Shown here in pieces: positions 10,705 through 30,791 of a stretch of DNA of 64,000 bases. The DNA comes from an uncultured bacterium. GTDB taxonomy: Bacteria; Acidobacteriota; Aminicenantia; Aminicenantales; CALLJL01. Where the stretch lies: positions 1 through 64,000 of the forward strand of contig CALLJL010000001.1 of the NCBI GenBank assembly GCA_938092135.1. Reading direction: 5' to 3'. Under the pieces are notes generated by a model that did not search any database, had not been told where the DNA came from, and saw only the letters and a program-made list of their open reading frames with translations. The position numbers and the translations under genes are program-made. Each line of letters opens with the position of its first letter. The stretch's first letter is position 1.

Positions 10705-11460
10705 TTATCTGGAAGGCGACCTCGGCAGCTTGGAAAGAAATGAGTGAAGACAGCCGATTCGTTCTCTTGAATATCTCCAATAGGGAAAATAGGAACGTTT
10801 CTCCTTTAATATATGGTAAATGATGGTCAGCAACCGCCGGGCTATTGCCACTTTTGCTGCGTTCACCCTCTTACTCTTTTTTAGTTTGTTGTAATAGCAC
10901 CGGAGGTCAAAATCCGCCCGCAGAGCCTGCCCGACCGCCTCCCAAAGCAATCTGCGATTTCCTTCCTTGATGACCTGGCCGTTAAAGCTCCTCACCCCTG
11001 AGCTATGTTTCGAGGGGATCACTTCAGCATAGGCAGGAAACTGGCTCACCTCTTCAAATCTTCCGATCTATTCGATCTCCACCGCCACCAAGCCCGCCAA
11101 AAATATATTAAATCCAGGAACGGTCTGGACGAGCTGCGCTGCGGGCATCTTCACCTCCAACTCCTTGACCAAAGCGTTTGTCTCGTTGATCCGGTCCTCG
11201 AGATGGGCATAAATCCGAAGCATGGCATCCACCAGCTTGGCCTATCTCCGGCAAGGCGAGACCCGGGAGGATTTTCATCCCCTTATCGGTGAAAAAGTTC
11301 TCCACCCGCTCCACCTCTTTCTGGCTTTCTTCTTTCTGCTGGGCTAAAAGAGCCCGCCACTGATTCTTTACCGCTGTCTGCTTGCCCACGTCAAAGGCCG
11401 GCTGATGCAACACCCTCTGCCAAATGATTCTACCGGGATCGGTTTTGTACCTCGCTGGAT
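10705..11460 (-). mobile_element. IS110-family transposase remnant (decayed)
   Basis: Three pieces on the minus strand together resemble an IS110/IS116/IS902 transposase. Near 11460-11240 is YKTDPGRIIWQRVLHQPAFD followed by a coiled region. A frameshift near 11240 then gives LVQTVPGFNIFLAGLVAVEI. An in-frame TAG at about 11070 precedes QFPAYAEVIPSKHSSGVRSF and LLWEAVGQALRADFDLRCYY (10705-11049), the C-terminal transposase_20-like part. The N-terminal DEDD nuclease part is absent. It is non-functional, and no terminal inverted repeats are expected for this family. Confidence 0.8.
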
Positions 11461-11639
11461 GTCCAGGCCAAACTTTTAAGGATCTTTGAACAGCAAGAAA
11501 TGAGGAGGCTCGGAGATACTGCCCTCAGATAGATTGATGACCGTTTCATTTTTGCCACCCACAGGGTGCTTGAAAAAAAGAAAAAAATGGAAAGTTCTGC
11601 CAGGATTTTTATTTCTGGATTAATTTTTTGAACCTAAGC

Positions 11640-12115
11640 ATTCCCCCAATGCGACAAAGAAGAGAAGATATTGTCCTGTTTATAAAAAAATTCATTAAAA
11701 AAATACGGATCTAAACGAAAGCAAGAGAACAAGCCATGATGCCCTGGAAATGTTCCTAAGATACTCTTTTCATAGAAATATCCGTGAACTCGAGAACATC
11801 CTTAGGATAGCCTTTGTTCTTATTGAGAGGAGAGAAATTCTGTCCAGAGATATTGTTTTTAAAAAATCAGAAGAAGAAATCGCGAAACTTTACAAAGGGA
11901 TGGTTTTAGGAGATAAAAGTTTCTGTGAAGCTGTTCATAAGCCTTTTCTTAGGTGAGACCTCAACCGGAGGCATGTCAATGCCATCCTGTCTCGAGGATT
12001 CGAAAAGACAAAAGCCTCATATAAAAAGCTCCTGCCAATGTTCCATATCGGCGAAAGCGAGAAAGATTACAAACTATTTATGGAGATGCTGGCTCTTCAT
12101 AAACTTCGCTAAATG
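11640..12115 (+). pseudogene. Decayed sigma-54-dependent activator (AAA+ C-terminal part)
   Basis: Readable fragments are SIPPMRQRREDIVLFIKKFI (about 11640-11715; compare IPPLRER-EDI). After a frameshift comes ALEMFLRYSFHRNIRELENI (11735-11840; compare YDWPGNVRELENV), then an in-frame TGA at 11954-11956. The same frame resumes with NRRHVNAILSRGFEKTKASY, then KKLLPMFHIGES, to a TAA at 12115. The tail resembles the non-Fis C-termini seen in some acidobacterial sigma-54 activators (my recollection, unchecked). At least one frameshift and one stop make it dead. It lies about 200 bp upstream of a sigma-54 promoter. Confidence 0.7.
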
Positions 12116-12120
12116 AAAAT

Positions 12121-12312: not shown

Positions 12313-12330
12313 CTGGCACGAAACTTGCTA
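12313..12330 (+). promoter_or_regulatory. Sigma-54 (-24/-12) promoter
   Basis: CTGGCACGAAACTTGCTA matches the consensus TGGCACG-N4-TTGCW at every position, with GG and GC separated by the required 10 bp. The expected start site, near 12341, is about 40 nt before the first cysteine-rich peptide gene. Confidence 0.85.
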
Positions 12331-12380
12331 AACTTATTGGTTGAGATTTTAAATATTTAATTATAAAAAGGAGGTTTTTA

Positions 12381-12623
12381 ATGTTTAAAAATAAACACGC
12401 TTTATGGCTTATGGCTGCGGTTCTGGTCTTAGGCTTATCGGCAGTCTTAATAACTGGAGCAATCAAGCTTTTCGCGGGAGTGCCCTTATATTGTAAAGAC
12501 TTATTTCCGGGCTATTGCACCCAGGGTGGATGTGACGGGGAAGGGGGGTGGTATGCAGTGAATTGCACGATTCACTGCCGAACAGGACTGGAAATTAACT
12601 GCGGCCGTCCACCTGCCCATTAA
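12381..12623 (+). CDS. Small exported six-cysteine peptide 1
   Basis: 80 aa. Strong ribosome site AAGGAGG is 8 nt before the ATG. Residues 8-32 are hydrophobic (signal or anchor), then a mature-like part with six cysteines: C-X7-C-X4-C-X10-C-X3-C-X7-C, containing LFP, GGC and GWY, and ending CGRPPAH. The next gene has the same framework and spacing. I do not recognise a named family. General features (short leader, Cys- and Gly-rich tail, neighbouring propeller and redoxin-like genes) recall NVEALA-type peptides of Bacteroidetes. Bacteriocin, signal peptide or surface peptide are all possible. It is first behind the sigma-54 promoter. Confidence 0.8.
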   Translation: MFKNKHALWLMAAVLVLGLSAVLITGAIKLFAGVPLYCKDLFPGYCTQGGCDGEGGWYAVNCTIHCRTGLEINCGRPPAH

Positions 12624-12742
12624 AGCTTATCCTTATGTTGTCTATGGTAACACTTTGATACGAACGGAGAGAGGAAAATAGTCGCCAGCAATAATTCGAG
12701 CTATATTCGGCGTCATTACGCGGCATAAAAGGAGGTTCAACA

Positions 12743-12970
12743 ATGAAGAGAAGACTAAAACTTTTATACATATTCTTTTTAATAGAAATCTTTCTTTTTT
12801 TCTTAGGAATACAGGAAGCATTAGCAACAATCTGGTGTGAACACCTTTTTCCCGATAATTGCAAAATTGGTGGGTGTAACGCTGAGCCAGGTTGGTACAC
12901 TGGCTATTGTGTAATTTATTGCAGTAAAACCTCCGCAATTGTCTGTCGACCGCCTGGGTGGTACTTTTAA
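12743..12970 (+). CDS. Small exported six-cysteine peptide 2
   Basis: 75 aa, with ribosome site AAGGAGG before the ATG. A basic start (MKRRLK) and hydrophobic core (residues 8-25) end in GIQEALA, a plausible signal-peptidase site that resembles the NVEALA motif. The tail has six cysteines with exactly the spacing of peptide 1 (7-4-10-3-7), and shares LFP, GGC, GWY and CRPP(G). The sequences differ otherwise, so this is an old duplication or a family kept by selection. An even number of cysteines and a conserved frame suggest three disulfides. Function is unknown. Confidence 0.8.
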   Translation: MKRRLKLLYIFFLIEIFLFFLGIQEALATIWCEHLFPDNCKIGGCNAEPGWYTGYCVIYCSKTSAIVCRPPGWYF

Positions 12971-13173
12971 AAGGCAGGAACATTTCTGCGAGTTGCTTAG
13001 TCCAGTTTCCATAAGGGGTGTTGAAAATATTGAAAAGGGTGTGGGGCTTGCCTTAAGAAAGACAAACTTAAATCTTGCGAAGGGAAAGAAGAAGCACCTA
13101 TTTTAATTTAAAAATTTATTTTTGGTGCCAGGTTGGGCGTTAGCCTCTGAGCACGTAGTTTGTTGAATAGACG

Positions 13174-13644
13174 ATGGAAAAGGGAAAATGCTTTCTTTGG
13201 AAACAGAACGAAAAAATAATTTTTTTCTTAAGCATTTTCTTAGTCCTTATGGCCGTTGTTTTTTACTATTTTGCCAAAATTAATAATTGCATATATCTGC
13301 TGGAAAAACAGATCCGAAAACTGGGTCCTCAGTACACCGAAATCGGAACTTTGTTATATTTTATAAATGAAGTAAATACATTGTGCCGGCCATGTGCGAA
13401 ATATGAACAATTAAAAAATGATTATTTTCGGGTCCTTTTTCTTGTCAAGAAGGATTATTCTGATCATGATATTGAAAACTTCGCCCACTCCTTCAAGATC
13501 CTTCCTCATCATGAAATTCAGAGAATGACCGACGCCTGGGAACATGTTTATAAGGTATGCAATTCTAATCGTCGTGGAATTAATTATAATTTTTTAATTA
13601 TTATAGACGATAAAGGGAAAATAATAGAAATTAGGAGGTTCTGA
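13174..13644 (+). CDS. Membrane-anchored thioredoxin-like CXXC protein
   Basis: 156 aa. One transmembrane segment (residues about 15-37, IIFFLSIFLVLMAVVFYYFA) is followed by an exported domain with TLCRPCAKYEQL, a CXXC motif of the thioredoxin type, and then FRVLFLVKKDYSDHDIENF. IIIDDKGKIIEIRRF at the end resembles the last strand of redoxins. The usual thioredoxin cis-Pro region is not obvious, so fold assignment is an inference. The ATG has only a weak ribosome site. It overlaps the propeller gene by one base (TGATG). A role in oxidising, reducing or sensing the adjacent cysteine-rich peptides is plausible but unproven. Confidence 0.65.
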   Translation: MEKGKCFLWKQNEKIIFFLSIFLVLMAVVFYYFAKINNCIYLLEKQIRKLGPQYTEIGTLLYFINEVNTLCRPCAKYEQLKNDYFRVLFLVKKDYSDHDIENFAHSFKILPHHEIQRMTDAWEHVYKVCNSNRRGINYNFLIIIDDKGKIIEIRRF

Positions 13645-14681
13645 TGAATATGAGATGCCGTGCCTTCCTTGGATTGATTTGCTTGTTCTTTTTAGCTCCT
13701 TTATTAACCTCTCAAGATGTAGAAAAAGCTCTAGTTCACAGATTAAATCTGGCATTATCATTTCCCAGGGATGAAAATGTCTTTTTCCAGACTACCCCAT
13801 TTATTGCGTTAGATAATGAAAGAAATATTTATGCCGTTGATAACAGGCAGCACGTCATTTTTAAGTTAGATTCTAACGGAAAATTTATTTCAAAAATCGG
13901 GAGAAAAGGACAAGGTCCGGGGGATCTTGAATGGCCTTGGCTAATAAGCGTCTGGAATAAGGCTATTTTTGTAGCAGATAATACTTCAATTTCTATCTTT
14001 GATCTGCAAGGGAACTTTCGGAATAAATTTAGAACATTCCATCCTCTTATTTCATTGGCTCCCACCGATGATAAAATTTTTTTCGCCCAAATAGAAAATG
14101 GCAAAATAATTCATGCTTATGATTATAATGGCAATAAGTTATATTCTTTCGGTAATAAATATTCGGTTGATTATGTGATTTATAGAGGATGGTCAAATGG
14201 AGCAATCGATAACTGGCTTAACGCTGGCAAATTGCTCTATGCCGGGTCTAGAATATATTTTATAACTTCTTTGTTCGGGGATATCTTTGCCTATGATCTA
14301 AAAGGAAATCTGATCTCTCAAAAAAGGATGGAAACCAATGAATTTATCGAGAAAAACAGGGCTCTTTATTTCAAAAAAGGAATGGTCAATAAGGGTGATG
14401 GAGCTTTCTTTCATAACAAACTTTTTGAAGATGCTTACTATTATCAAGGAAAGATTTTTGTTTTATTATCATCGCCGGCCGGGAATTCATGTGGAGAAGA
14501 TATCTGGCAATTAGATGAAAAAACGCTCAAAATCGAAAAAAGGTACGTTTTGTTCAATAAAACTCAGCGCGATAAGAATTGGCTCAGAAGCTTGGTTGTC
14601 ACATCTGATCATACTGGAAATAATCTCTTTTATGTATCCCTCTATGATTCAAAAGATTTTGTAATCAACATCTATAAATAA
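13644..14681 (+). CDS. 6-bladed beta-propeller (NHL/BF3164-like) exported protein
   Basis: 345 aa. A signal peptide (residues 1-24) is followed by propeller repeats: IALDNERNIYAVDNRQHVIF, KLDSNGKFISKIGRKGQGPG, and further blades with FVADN, IFDLQGNF, YDYNGNKLYSFG and AYDLKGNL. The GRKGQGPG turn is typical of this 6-bladed propeller family, which in Bacteroidetes occurs as lipoproteins near TonB receptors or NVEALA peptides. No lipobox Cys is visible. AGGAGG at 13632-13637 supports the start. It closes the peptide/redoxin operon and could bind or sense the peptide. The ligand is unknown. Confidence 0.85.
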   Translation: MNMRCRAFLGLICLFFLAPLLTSQDVEKALVHRLNLALSFPRDENVFFQTTPFIALDNERNIYAVDNRQHVIFKLDSNGKFISKIGRKGQGPGDLEWPWLISVWNKAIFVADNTSISIFDLQGNFRNKFRTFHPLISLAPTDDKIFFAQIENGKIIHAYDYNGNKLYSFGNKYSVDYVIYRGWSNGAIDNWLNAGKLLYAGSRIYFITSLFGDIFAYDLKGNLISQKRMETNEFIEKNRALYFKKGMVNKGDGAFFHNKLFEDAYYYQGKIFVLLSSPAGNSCGEDIWQLDEKTLKIEKRYVLFNKTQRDKNWLRSLVVTSDHTGNNLFYVSLYDSKDFVINIYK

Positions 14682-14999
14682 AAAGAAGAGCACAGTCCAT
14701 AAACTTTTTAGATTGATCTTCTTTTTCAAGATTTACCCAAAAGGCCGAACAATTGAGTTTATAAAAAATATGAGCTTGGTCAAGAATAAAAACAAGAAGT
14801 GATGTTTTTTCCGAATATTCGATACCAAGGTAGATTCAACTGGAGACATTTTTTTATTAAGGTCTAAGAACCTGAGCTGTGTCTCTACAAATTGATGTGT
14901 ATGAGAGGGCAACTCGACGAGGCGCAACTTTAACAAGCTACGTCCTTGAACCCCAAAGATGTTACTTGCTTCGGGAAGGGAGAAGGTATAAATTATATA
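14682..14999. other. Intergenic region leading into the second IS remnant
   Basis: A minus-strand open frame continues here from the transposase remnant (to 14733), but its sequence no longer resembles a transposase. I read it as junction DNA. Confidence 0.45.
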
Positions 15000-15190
15000 G
15001 GAATGATTCTCTTTGGGCATCCGGTAGATAATGGTCAGTAACCTGCCTGCTATCGCCCCTTTCACTGCGTTTGTCCCCTTCCTGCTTTTTGGTCTGTCGT
15101 AATAGCACCGGAGGTCAAAATCCGCCCGCAGAGCCTGCCCGACCGCCTCCCAAAGCAATCAGCGATTTCCTTCCTTGATAATCTTATGGT
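15000..15190 (-). mobile_element. IS110-family transposase fragment, second copy
   Basis: A stretch of about 180 bp on the minus strand is clearly homologous to part of the remnant at 10.8-11.0 kb. The block encoding LLWEAVGQALRADFDLRCYY is almost identical (about 15109-15180 versus 10895-10970). The adjoining block encoding RLLTIIYRMPKENHSYI is diverged. Same orientation as the first copy. The two fragments bracket about 4 kb containing the peptide operon. Confidence 0.75.
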
Positions 15191-27766: not shown

Positions 27767-28777
27767 TTGCCGAAAAGATTCGTTGCTTATTTAATCTTTT
27801 TGGGCATTTATTTTTATAATTATTATTCCAATAGCCCTCAATCAAGAGAGAATGCTTTTTTAGACATATCTAATTTAAAGCTTGTCGATCTTGATGGGCA
27901 TATAGTTCCCATGGACAAAGTTAATGATAAATATATTCTTTTTCTTTATTTTGATTCCTTAAGATTAAGAGATAAAGAAATCCTCAGCTATGCTGAAGTT
28001 TTGTATCGAAAATATAAGCACAATGGCCTTAAAATTTTGGGGATTTGCTCTGGAAACGAAGCTGGTTGTAGAGAATTTCGCTCCAGGGCGGGTTTTTCTT
28101 TTCCATTTATTTTAGATAGAGAAAATGTTCTTAAGCATTTTTTAAATGTTGATTATTGTTGCGGGGCCACATTATTAATTGAAAAGAACGGGGTAATCAA
28201 GTTTCGTTCGCCCTTATTAATTAGTCAAGAAAATCTTCGGCAGCTTTTGGAAAAAGAAATTAAGGGGAAAATTGATTATAATTTGCCGCCGCCTCTTATT
28301 TCCGTACGAGATATAAAAAAAAGGCTTTTCTCTCTTTCATTTATTGATTTGGAAACCCACGAAATTAAGCAAATAAAAAATTTAGTTAACTTCGATTTCA
28401 CAATTATGAATTTCTACTTTAATTTTTGTCCCGGATGTAAACAAGCCAGGCGAAATATTACTTTAAAAACACTTAAGGAAGCCACTTTAAATTATAAAAT
28501 AAAAGCAGAAATATTTATTATTTTTCCATCTTTTTATACTGATAAAGATATTATCGAAGTAACAAAATATATTGATTTCCCTTTTCCGAAGCTAATCTAT
28601 TTCGGTGACTTTTTCTCTGATAATGAGAAATATGTTGCTGAACCGAGTAAAAAACTAGACCAGCTTATTTTGGTTTTAGATACTAACTTTAATATAGTTT
28701 TTATGGAATCACCAGATCAAGATGAATTATTTATACAAAATAGTATTTTGAGCTTAATAAAAAATATAAAAAAATGA
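27767..28777 (+). CDS. Exported tandem redoxin (TlpA/AhpC-like plus CXXC domain)
   Basis: 336 aa from a TTG start with AAAAGGG upstream. Residues 4-20 form a signal or anchor. The first domain (about 32-170) has a redoxin outline, LVDLDGHIVPMDKVNDKYIL then GLKILGICSGNEAGCREF and a C-C pair in VDYCCGATLLIE, but lacks CXXC in the normal place. The second (about 190-335) has FNFCPGCKQARRN, a proper CXXC after the first strand, and ends LILVLDTNFNIVFMESP like TlpA-type redoxins. Low GC compared with rhaAB. Overlaps the next gene by 4 bp (ATGA). A thiol-redox partner for the nearby Cys-rich peptide is plausible. Confidence 0.7.
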   Translation: MPKRFVAYLIFLGIYFYNYYSNSPQSRENAFLDISNLKLVDLDGHIVPMDKVNDKYILFLYFDSLRLRDKEILSYAEVLYRKYKHNGLKILGICSGNEAGCREFRSRAGFSFPFILDRENVLKHFLNVDYCCGATLLIEKNGVIKFRSPLLISQENLRQLLEKEIKGKIDYNLPPPLISVRDIKKRLFSLSFIDLETHEIKQIKNLVNFDFTIMNFYFNFCPGCKQARRNITLKTLKEATLNYKIKAEIFIIFPSFYTDKDIIEVTKYIDFPFPKLIYFGDFFSDNEKYVAEPSKKLDQLILVLDTNFNIVFMESPDQDELFIQNSILSLIKNIKK

Positions 28778-29523
28778 AATTTTTTTTAAAAAAATCTTTG
28801 CTTATTGTCGGATTATTAGCTTTAGTTATTTTGTTCTCATGTTTACCTCAATCTTCTTCTAGTTTGATTCACACGGAAGATATTGAAATTGAGCCTTTAT
28901 TTTCCTTAGAAAATTTTAGTGCGGAGATAATCAACACAGCCATTTTATATGGTAATTCTCTTTGTCAGGATAAAAATGAAAATTTTTATTTCTTAGAGAC
29001 AACTAATCATCGGATCATAAAAACTGACGTTCAAGGAAAAATCCTTAGTCAAATTGGCCAAATTGGCCAGGATGAAGGTGATCTTTATTATCCCTTTGGT
29101 TTTTATCTCTTAGGAGAATATCTCTATATTTTGAACAATACAGGAAAAGAAATTAAGATATTTTCTATTGAAGGAAGATATATTAATTCGTTTAAAATTA
29201 ATGACGTCTTTCAGGCTCAATCTATTGTTACTAATTCAAAATTAATTTTCGCGGATTTCAGATATAAAAATTGGAAAGCTCATGATAATTCCCATTTAAT
29301 TACAAGTTTATCCGTTGAAGGCAAGATAATAAATAGATTTGGTGCATTAATTGAATCAGATAACCTTTCAGGATATGTAAATTTTAATTTAGTTTATCTT
29401 TCTTTAGTCGATGATTTTCTTTTCGGTGCCTTCCATTATGTTTTGTTTTTTGCTCAGTTATCGGTCAGTCAGTGGCTGCACCGCCTATGCCTATTGTGGG
29501 GGAACGCAGGTTGCTTTTTGTGA
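28774..29523 (+). pseudogene. 6-bladed beta-propeller lipoprotein, 3'-truncated
   Basis: 249 aa. A lipoprotein signal (VILFSCLPQS, Cys at about 23) is followed by propeller blades: LCQDKNENFYFLETTNHRII, KTDVQGKILSQIGQIGQDEG, LYILNNTGKEIKIFSIEGRY. After about residue 220 the sequence stops looking like a propeller and runs out of frame into the cysteine-rich peptide coding region below. Normal members are about 340-390 aa, so a deletion probably joined the front of this gene to the back of a peptide gene near 29440. It is likely inactive. Confidence 0.65.
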
Positions 29524-29641
29524 GACATGGGGGTATTGCGAAAATGCCCATTGCTCAGCCATAGACTGTATCGCCGCAAGATGTCAATGTGATGGGGATA
29601 GGATAACCGCTATATGTGATCCTGGAGGATGCTCCCAATAA
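29411..29641 (+). pseudogene. Ten-cysteine peptide, leader lost by deletion
   Basis: In the frame 29411-29641, residues from about 21 on read SGCTAYAYCGGTQVAFC, ETWGYCENAHCSAIDC and IAARCQCDGDRITAICDPGG, with ten cysteines and no homologous spacing to the peptides at 12.4-13.0 kb. The upstream part of the frame belongs to the truncated propeller gene read in another phase, so the original signal sequence is missing. A short MFCFLLSYRSVSG start could be used, but I see no good ribosome site. The next propeller gene starts 22 bp after its stop. Confidence 0.5.
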
Positions 29642-29663
29642 AAATATTTCCAAGGAAGAGTTT

Positions 29664-30791
29664 ATGAAGAGATTTCTTAAATTGAAACTAAAAGGTTTGC
29701 CAAACCATGTAGTCTTCATATTTATTGTCTCGGGGCTGTTCTCCTCTCAGCAAGTAATTAATGAAAAACCAAAATATGGAAATTTTCGCTTCGATTTAAT
29801 AGAGGATGTCGTCATAAGGGAATCTTCAGTTGATGAGCCCTATATCTTTTCGAAACTTATTAATGACCTCCAAATTGACTCTAAAGGAAACCTTTACATT
29901 CTTGATACCGAAAAGCTGGTCAAATTTGATTCTCAGGGAAATTTTCTCAAGAAGATAGGTAGAAAGGGAGAAGGCCCAGGAGAATATCTGAATCCCTTTA
30001 ATATCTTTATTGATAATGAAGATAACGTTTATGTTTGTGACCGGGGAGTTTTAATTATTAAATACGATCCTGAGGGAAATTTTATTGACCAGATTCGATT
30101 GAAATTAACGATTCCCTTTATGCCTTTTGAAGCCAGAAATTTCTTTATCGATAAAGAGGAGAATATAATTTCTTTTTACCGCGAATTTTCAGAAAAAGGC
30201 GCTGACCGAACTTTAATTAAATCGAATAAAAGCGGAGTTTTGATTAGGAAAATATTTTCTTTTCCTGATATGGCTTTACAAGTTAAAGGCAAAGGAGGCC
30301 TTGGTGGAGTAGTCGGGGCAACAATTCATGCCTATACACCCAGTTGTTATTTTTGTCCATTAGCAAAGGACAGATTCTGTTATGGAGAAAATACTAATTA
30401 TAAAATTTTTATTTTTGATGGAAAGGGTGAGATTAATAAGGAATTCAGTCTGAAAGAAGAACCTCAACCTGTAACCTCATCTGAACGGGCTCTTTTTGTT
30501 AAGAGTAAAGACATCTTTCTTCCTAAATATCGGCCTTTTTTTAAAGCCATCCTATGCGATGAGGTCGGAAGGATCTATGTTGTCAGAACCAAATTACTTC
30601 AAGATAAGAGCAACCTTGAGGAAATTGACATTTTTAATGCGGAAGGGGTTTATCTTTACCGGGCTCGCTTAAATTTTCTGCCTCGAATCATAAAAAACGG
30701 CTATTTCTATGTTATCGACCAAAGGTCAGATGGCTTAAGAGAAATTAAAAGATTGAAGATTAAAAATTATCGCGACCTTGCTTCTTCTTAG
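29664..30791 (+). CDS. 6-bladed beta-propeller (NHL-like) exported protein
   Basis: 375 aa from the ATG at 29664, chosen for AAGGAAGAG just upstream; an in-frame GTG at 29616 would overlap the peptide gene. Hydrophobic residues 10-28 form a signal. Blades include LQIDSKGNLYILDTEKLVKF, DSQGNFLKKIGRKGEGPGEY, IFIDNEDNVYVCDRG and ILCDEVGRIYVV. The GRKGEGPGEY turn parallels GRKGQGPGDL in the propeller at 13.6 kb. It appears full-length, unlike its upstream relative. The ligand is unknown; location beside a peptide gene repeats the first locus. Confidence 0.85.
   Translation: MKRFLKLKLKGLPNHVVFIFIVSGLFSSQQVINEKPKYGNFRFDLIEDVVIRESSVDEPYIFSKLINDLQIDSKGNLYILDTEKLVKFDSQGNFLKKIGRKGEGPGEYLNPFNIFIDNEDNVYVCDRGVLIIKYDPEGNFIDQIRLKLTIPFMPFEARNFFIDKEENIISFYREFSEKGADRTLIKSNKSGVLIRKIFSFPDMALQVKGKGGLGGVVGATIHAYTPSCYFCPLAKDRFCYGENTNYKIFIFDGKGEINKEFSLKEEPQPVTSSERALFVKSKDIFLPKYRPFFKAILCDEVGRIYVVRTKLLQDKSNLEEIDIFNAEGVYLYRARLNFLPRIIKNGYFYVIDQRSDGLREIKRLKIKNYRDLASS

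Follow-up and report, generated by a model that had tools for sequence, protein, structure and literature searches.

In Bacteroides, NVEALA (PF14055) loci encode a short exported cysteine peptide near propellers of the DUF5128 type and TlpA-like proteins. To our knowledge, neither sigma-54 control nor a cysteine framework of the six-cysteine or CX6C/CX6C kind is among the known features of these loci. Another example is the mau cluster of methylamine dehydrogenase, in which a propeller (MauB), a cysteine-rich protein (MauA) and a thioredoxin-like protein (MauD) are found. A third case is NHLRC2, where a thioredoxin-like domain lies beside an NHL propeller and a cleft with a cysteine motif has been proposed to bind a ligand or a partner (PMC6107167). 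An operon with components of these kinds is described here from the window, that is, the whole stretch of 64,000 nucleotides that was analysed, which comes from an uncultured bacterium of the Aminicenantales. In the literature searched (most subscription journals lay outside its scope), no description of a peptide–thioredoxin–propeller system was found, and the same search returned nothing on NVEALA and nothing on Aminicenantes with sigma-54.

The operon in the window

The features of the operon and of its flanks are, in window coordinates:

10705..11413, - strand: transposase remnant of the IS110/IS116 type, left flank (PF02371 at E 3e-4 for 10705-11049; ORFs)
11430..12116 (approximate limits), + strand: decayed NtrC-type sigma-54 activator gene with frameshifts and stops, directly upstream of the promoter
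12314..12329, + strand: sigma-54 -24/-12 promoter element TGGCACGAAACTTGCT, a perfect match
12370..12374, + strand: ribosome binding site GGAGG of pep1, from the sequence
12381..12623, + strand: pep1, exported peptide of 80 aa with six cysteines (ORF and homologues)
12730..12735, + strand: ribosome binding site AGGAGG of pep2, from the sequence
12743..12970, + strand: pep2, 75 aa, paralogue of pep1 (ORF; 38% identical to pep1)
13174..13644, + strand: membrane-anchored thioredoxin-fold protein (the CXXC protein), 156 aa, with CRPC (C71, C74) (predicted structure; homologues adjoin peptides)
13644..14681, + strand: exported six-bladed beta-propeller of the DUF5128/NHL type, 345 aa (PF17170, NHL structures)
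14733..15158, - strand: similar transposase remnant, right flank (N-terminal part close to the left remnant, by eye)

The promoter letters TGGCACG-AAAC-TTGCT, with their GG-N10-GC core, lie directly 5' of pep1, and a scan of the 64-kb window at no more than one mismatch returned this as the sole site (0.31 expected). Genome-wide (2.84 Mb) there are three perfect -24/-12 sites, the window site among them; of the remaining two, one precedes a gene for an exported protein of 363 aa and the other a pilin-like gene, which itself follows a sigma-54 activator gene. The same genome encodes rpoN and about a dozen sigma-54 activators. The promoter before the peptides, which the initial annotation had called near-perfect, is in fact a perfect element. 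Judged by its sequence, sigma-54 together with an activator would switch the peptides on upon a specific signal, with a transcript start expected near 12341. In the decayed activator gene just upstream, PF00158 is recognised at 11452-11586 (E 5e-7), with a stop, and the C-terminal part was identified by eye (ORF 11750-11956). This gene and the transposase remnants on both flanks point to a probable rearrangement of the locus.

The two small exported cysteine-rich peptides fit the framework first proposed for them exactly, with identical spacing in both (C-X7-C-X4-C-X10-C-X3-C-X7-C) and GGAGG before each ATG. In pep1 the cysteines are C38, C46, C51, C62, C66 and C74, and W57 is invariant. For pep2, pN is 0.41 and pS 0.65; a dN/dS above 1 in one pep6 pair is based on so few changes that it carries no meaning. 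The peptides would leave the cytoplasm through an N-terminal hydrophobic signal, presumably by Sec export, and fold outside it with three disulfides each, as the six invariant cysteines suggest. The fold of the mature peptide is poorly predicted by AF2 (pLDDT about 46-54, too weak for a fold search). Neither Pfam nor NCBIfam has a model that matches this six-cysteine family or the four-cysteine family described below; PADLOC has no model for the window peptide, its only matches being of ABC/AAA ATPase models to one protein, and the peptide profiles had no meaningful match among PDB sequences. NVEALA (PF14055) was also considered as the peptide family and rejected, the window peptides being unmatched at E<=1; the best match of that model in their own genome lies elsewhere (E 0.83), and none of 59 genomes of the same order has a match above its cut-off.

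The AF2 model of the CXXC protein (pLDDT 86) has a long predicted N-terminal, transmembrane helix at 11-50 followed by a thioredoxin fold, with CRPC (71-74) at the predicted start of the first helix of that fold. Foldseek matched it to peroxiredoxins and TlpA-type thioredoxins with probability 1.00 and modest TM-scores (0.4-0.5), and no thioredoxin family of Pfam matched at E<=1. The anchored thioredoxin-like protein of the initial annotation is therefore confirmed by predicted structure and not by a Pfam match. This protein would act as the dedicated thiol-disulfide factor of the peptides. The propeller, also as annotated, scores 24.9 bits against PF17170 (DUF5128, '6-bladed beta-propeller'; cut-off 22.9) and matches NHL structures at E 1e-16; its presumed role is to bind the peptide, in the periplasm or at the cell surface.

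The gene order between 12381 and 14681 is pep1, pep2, CXXC gene and propeller, the last two overlapping by one base. Between pep2 and the CXXC gene lies a gap of 203 bases, in which no terminator-like site was found on the + strand, and co-transcription of all four genes despite this gap is likely from the sequence. All four genes lie on the + strand, in agreement with the initial annotation. The operon contains no ABC transporter, recognised immunity gene, maturase or leader peptidase. Further along the window (27767-30791, + strand), a second and apparently unrelated set of thioredoxin-like protein, propellers and cysteine-rich peptide was observed:

27767-28777, + strand: thioredoxin-like protein with CPGC
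28774-29523, + strand: short propeller ORF
29411-29641, + strand: 76-aa cysteine-rich peptide, partly overlapping the short propeller ORF in another frame
29616-30791, + strand: further propeller

Six-cysteine triads in related genomes

About a dozen genomes of the Aminicenantia encode homologues of the six-cysteine peptide; next to them, the redox protein and the propeller of the window also have homologues. Searches of the 59 same-order genomes with pep1 and the CXXC protein gave neighbouring matches in seven genomes of another family (g12), mostly Candidatus Saccharicenans together with other Aminicenantes MAGs. In the Saccharicenans-type genomes the pep1 homologues match at E 1e-11 to 1e-18, and the propeller homologues of the six-cysteine triads at E 1e-46 to 1e-57. 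Profile searches, for the later of which the propeller HMM was cleaned of one non-propeller protein, add triads in G100, G095 (two loci), G094 and the sister species G001. A search of GTDB contigs with the single pep1 sequence found nothing; a profile search of the same contigs did find homologues of the six-cysteine peptide. The order of the genes is CXXC-propeller-peptide in the g12 genomes, where they abut or overlap, and peptide-propeller-CXXC in G094. In the aligned peptides (alignments A2 and A6) all six cysteines, a GGC motif and W57 are invariant. Both the six conserved cysteines and the recurrent neighbourhood of peptide, CXXC protein and propeller thus exist outside the window.

Decay has also occurred. 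The genome of the window carries at C8:87039-88220 (L048, L275) a copy with stops that runs from a CXXC gene to a six-cysteine peptide in the order seen in the relatives, and in G021 a decayed peptide gene lies between hypA- and guaA-like genes, where three relatives have an intact triad. The second cysteine of the CXXC motif is variable as well: the relatives at L039, L041 and L258 share CRPC with the window protein, whereas five others have CCNL, CRPL (three) or CRSL, the first cysteine being invariant. These relatives keep all six peptide cysteines, and the loss indicates that dithiol catalysis is dispensable in some six-cysteine sets.

The sigma-54 element is absent from all other six-cysteine triads inspected, so that its pairing with a six-cysteine peptide in the window is so far a single case; the co-occurrence expected by the initial annotation does not extend to these relatives, which use other promoters. 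Five of the seven g12 loci carry a T9-T14 tract behind TTGACA, within the promoter spacer; homopolymers of this kind (8 or more) are often so scarce there that 11-18 kb contain hardly any others. In G041 a G9 tract separates TTGACT from TATATT. Tract-bearing promoters were seen at L039, L041, L042, L044 and L045 (upstream of the CXXC gene) and at L046. The tract looks like a slippage-prone spacer, possibly of a phase-variable promoter.

One locus of G095 (L269, 2284-4372) has neighbours of another kind. Directly upstream of a triad of CXXC protein, propeller and cysteine-rich peptide, it encodes an AlbA-like radical-SAM protein (its best score is to the subtilosin maturase AlbA, and its N-terminus weakly resembles PqqD) and a C39-type peptidase that looks exported; a further set of peptide, CPKC protein and propeller follows downstream.

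Four-cysteine peptide operons under sigma-54

A strict pattern of promoter, ribosome binding site and ATG was searched for in the 59 same-order genomes, with the reversed pattern as control. It gave 64 matches in 34 genomes, the control none. Apart from the window, seven loci (L092, L097, L106, L128, L133, L146 and L149) have a short first gene with at least three cysteines and enough downstream sequence, and all seven encode four-cysteine peptides. These are exported, 69-81 aa long and of the form CX6C...CX6C, and are followed by a propeller and then by a thioredoxin-like CxxC protein, that of L092 having a CFSC motif and falling outside the profile. In sequence the four- and six-cysteine peptide families are unrelated. 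With a profile of the former (A4), relatives were detected in 75 of 142 genomes of the class, all but one in the order of the window, and across 396 genomes of the phylum its matches at E<=1e-4 are confined to members of the order.

Sixty four-cysteine loci were then taken by peptide profile alone, ignoring the promoter; they span several families and are mutually related, so their counts are not independent events. Their downstream genes include a propeller in 48, a thioredoxin in 37 and an ABC component in 21. The propeller count leaves out matches with E above 1e-26 and was made with an HMM that included one non-propeller protein; matches of this HMM to genes that follow the thioredoxin gene, at about E 1e-15 to 1e-36, were disregarded. 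A sigma-54 element with at most two mismatches is present in 49 of the 60, against 0.35 expected from dinucleotide shuffles, and in most of these it lies 41-44 nt upstream of the start of the peptide gene. The thioredoxin of one such operon matches AhpC-TSA/redoxin (E 3e-10), and the permease is ABC-2-like. The genome of the window itself has a full operon of this type at C23:157742-161200 (L214), with sigma-54 element, peptide, propeller, thioredoxin, ABC-2 permease and ATPase.

The cysteines of these operons are well kept: 45 of 46 thioredoxins have an intact CxxC, and 69 of 72 peptides have the full CX6C...CX6C pair. The remaining three peptides are orphan copies that have lost both C1 and C4, which suggests a C1-C4 bond and, with C2-C3 as the second bond, a helical hairpin. 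The one peptide pair measured has a dN/dS of 0.33-0.41, that is, ordinary purifying selection. A TGTGAC/GTTGAC motif, a candidate activator site, occurs in 37 of 56 four-cysteine promoters vs 6 of 53 other sigma-54 promoters and is absent at the window promoter. Its most frequent position is 80-100 nt upstream of the -24 element (for example, in L214, L231, L215 and L217), an agreement in position that is partly due to the relatedness of the loci.

Several other observations concern these genomes. Orphan four-cysteine peptide genes occur in the genome of the window (C8:116654, L231) and in G001 (L234), and each adjoins a divergent VKOR-like (disulfide-forming) gene, recognised by eye. In four-cysteine operons without ABC genes, a recurrent protein of about 330 aa with a weak DUF4145 match follows the thioredoxin gene (L128 2896-3885, with equivalents in L133, L149 and L201-L203). 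Other recurrent targets of the strict promoter in the 59 genomes (L090-L148), all assigned by eye, are outer-membrane-like proteins of about 250 aa, ComE-like helix-hairpin proteins, small DxNxDG-repeat proteins beside two-component genes, and an exported protein of about 350 aa.

Function of the operon and alternative explanations

The four-cysteine operons share the same kinds of partner and sigma-54 with the window operon, which is thus one variant of a recurrent architecture of exported cysteine peptide, dedicated thioredoxin and propeller, commonly under sigma-54. We see an even chance that the operon serves to produce, oxidise and present a secreted disulfide peptide by means of a thioredoxin-fold protein and a propeller dedicated to it, and we lean towards a peptide that is secreted and acts from cell to cell. 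Against this reading are the loss of the second CXXC cysteine in several relatives whose peptides keep all six cysteines, the lack of a sigma-54 element in the other six-cysteine triads inspected, the lack of the TGTGAC/GTTGAC motif at the window promoter and of an ABC transporter in the window operon, and the weak fold prediction for the mature peptide. The same design recurs across Aminicenantales with the non-homologous four-cysteine peptides, where sigma-54 and an intact CxxC are usual and ABC-2 genes frequent. More tentatively, these would be order-wide sigma-54 peptide systems with interchangeable disulfide peptides (six-cysteine, CX6C/CX6C hairpin and others), each with its own thioredoxin and a propeller as receptor or carrier, and would constitute a new kind of peptide signalling or contact. 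The export, folding or sensing system proposed in the initial annotation remains plausible as regards export and folding, although dithiol catalysis is not needed in every six-cysteine set.

Alternatively, the peptides may be bacteriocin-like antagonists, sometimes as a two-peptide pair, with the propeller and an ABC-2 transporter serving self-protection or delivery. We consider this rather unlikely. Tandem peptide pairs in many loci would fit it, as would an ABC-2 permease and an ATPase in the same operon (in the four-cysteine operons), the patchy gain and decay of six-cysteine triads and the homopolymer tracts in the promoter spacers of relatives, as in phase-variable genes; the ATPase also has matches, far under the cut-offs, to subfamilies for daunorubicin resistance and lantibiotic protection. 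On the other hand, the four-cysteine peptides are conserved over an order and, in the one pair measured, under purifying selection instead of being diversified, no immunity gene is recognised, and the window operon is without an ABC transporter.

The invariant C51-X5-W57 of the six-cysteine peptide, and the presence of one propeller per one or two peptides in abutting or overlapping genes, could also reflect a periplasmic enzyme or binding complex, in which the propeller would be the large subunit, the peptide the disulfide-rich small subunit and the thioredoxin an assembly factor, on the model of methylamine dehydrogenase. In agreement with this, the thioredoxin of the four-cysteine operon has a weak match to MauD, far short of the cut-off (E 8e-4). 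However, the window proteins match no amine dehydrogenase subunit family in Pfam or NCBIfam, the operon has no heme or quinone-cofactor genes, and the four-cysteine peptides have no conserved tryptophan; the explanation is an unlikely one. Still less probable is a RiPP that is modified by an enzyme from another locus, with thioredoxin and propeller as accessories: the peptides look Sec-exported and no modification enzyme is found in the window operon or in the other triads, the G095 triad directly downstream of the AlbA-like protein and the C39-type peptidase being a single case. Finally, that the promoter is a chance motif before unrelated neighbours is very improbable, for despite the 203-nt gap, the transposase remnants on both flanks and the lack of a sigma-54 site in other six-cysteine triads, the element is perfect and rightly placed, the reversed pattern has no match in 59 genomes, and the triad recurs in other families.

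Significance and comparison with known systems

The reading as a secreted disulfide peptide with dedicated partners is of interest because Aminicenantota are mostly uncultured and two peptide families that no database model covers, one or both of them order-wide, have been found there. Both occur with partner proteins of the same kinds, and the larger is associated with one promoter class and a candidate activator site; oxidation by the thioredoxin and binding by the propeller are therefore testable in a heterologous host. If the thioredoxin does oxidise the peptide and the propeller bind it, this would suggest why loci of propeller, TlpA-like protein and peptide recur, as in Bacteroides. An exported cysteine peptide with a propeller and a thioredoxin-like partner is already known in kind, and there is a fair chance that the function is new.

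The likeness to the NVEALA loci lies in the short exported cysteine peptide, the DUF5128-type propeller and the TlpA-like protein. Bacteriocin and RiPP cassettes with an ABC-2 transporter resemble the four-cysteine operons in their tandem small peptides, ABC-2 permease and ATPase, but the systems described here have no maturase or leader peptidase and instead have a propeller, a thioredoxin and a sigma-54 promoter. The mau cluster likewise brings together a propeller, a small disulfide-rich subunit and a thioredoxin-like factor, although the window proteins are without a match to its subunit families (MADH/QHNDH) and the operon is without genes for making a cofactor. Finally, in NHLRC2 a thioredoxin fold and an NHL propeller are paired as they are here; there the two form one chain, whereas in the window they are encoded by separate genes, the thioredoxin is membrane-anchored, and a peptide is present as a third component.
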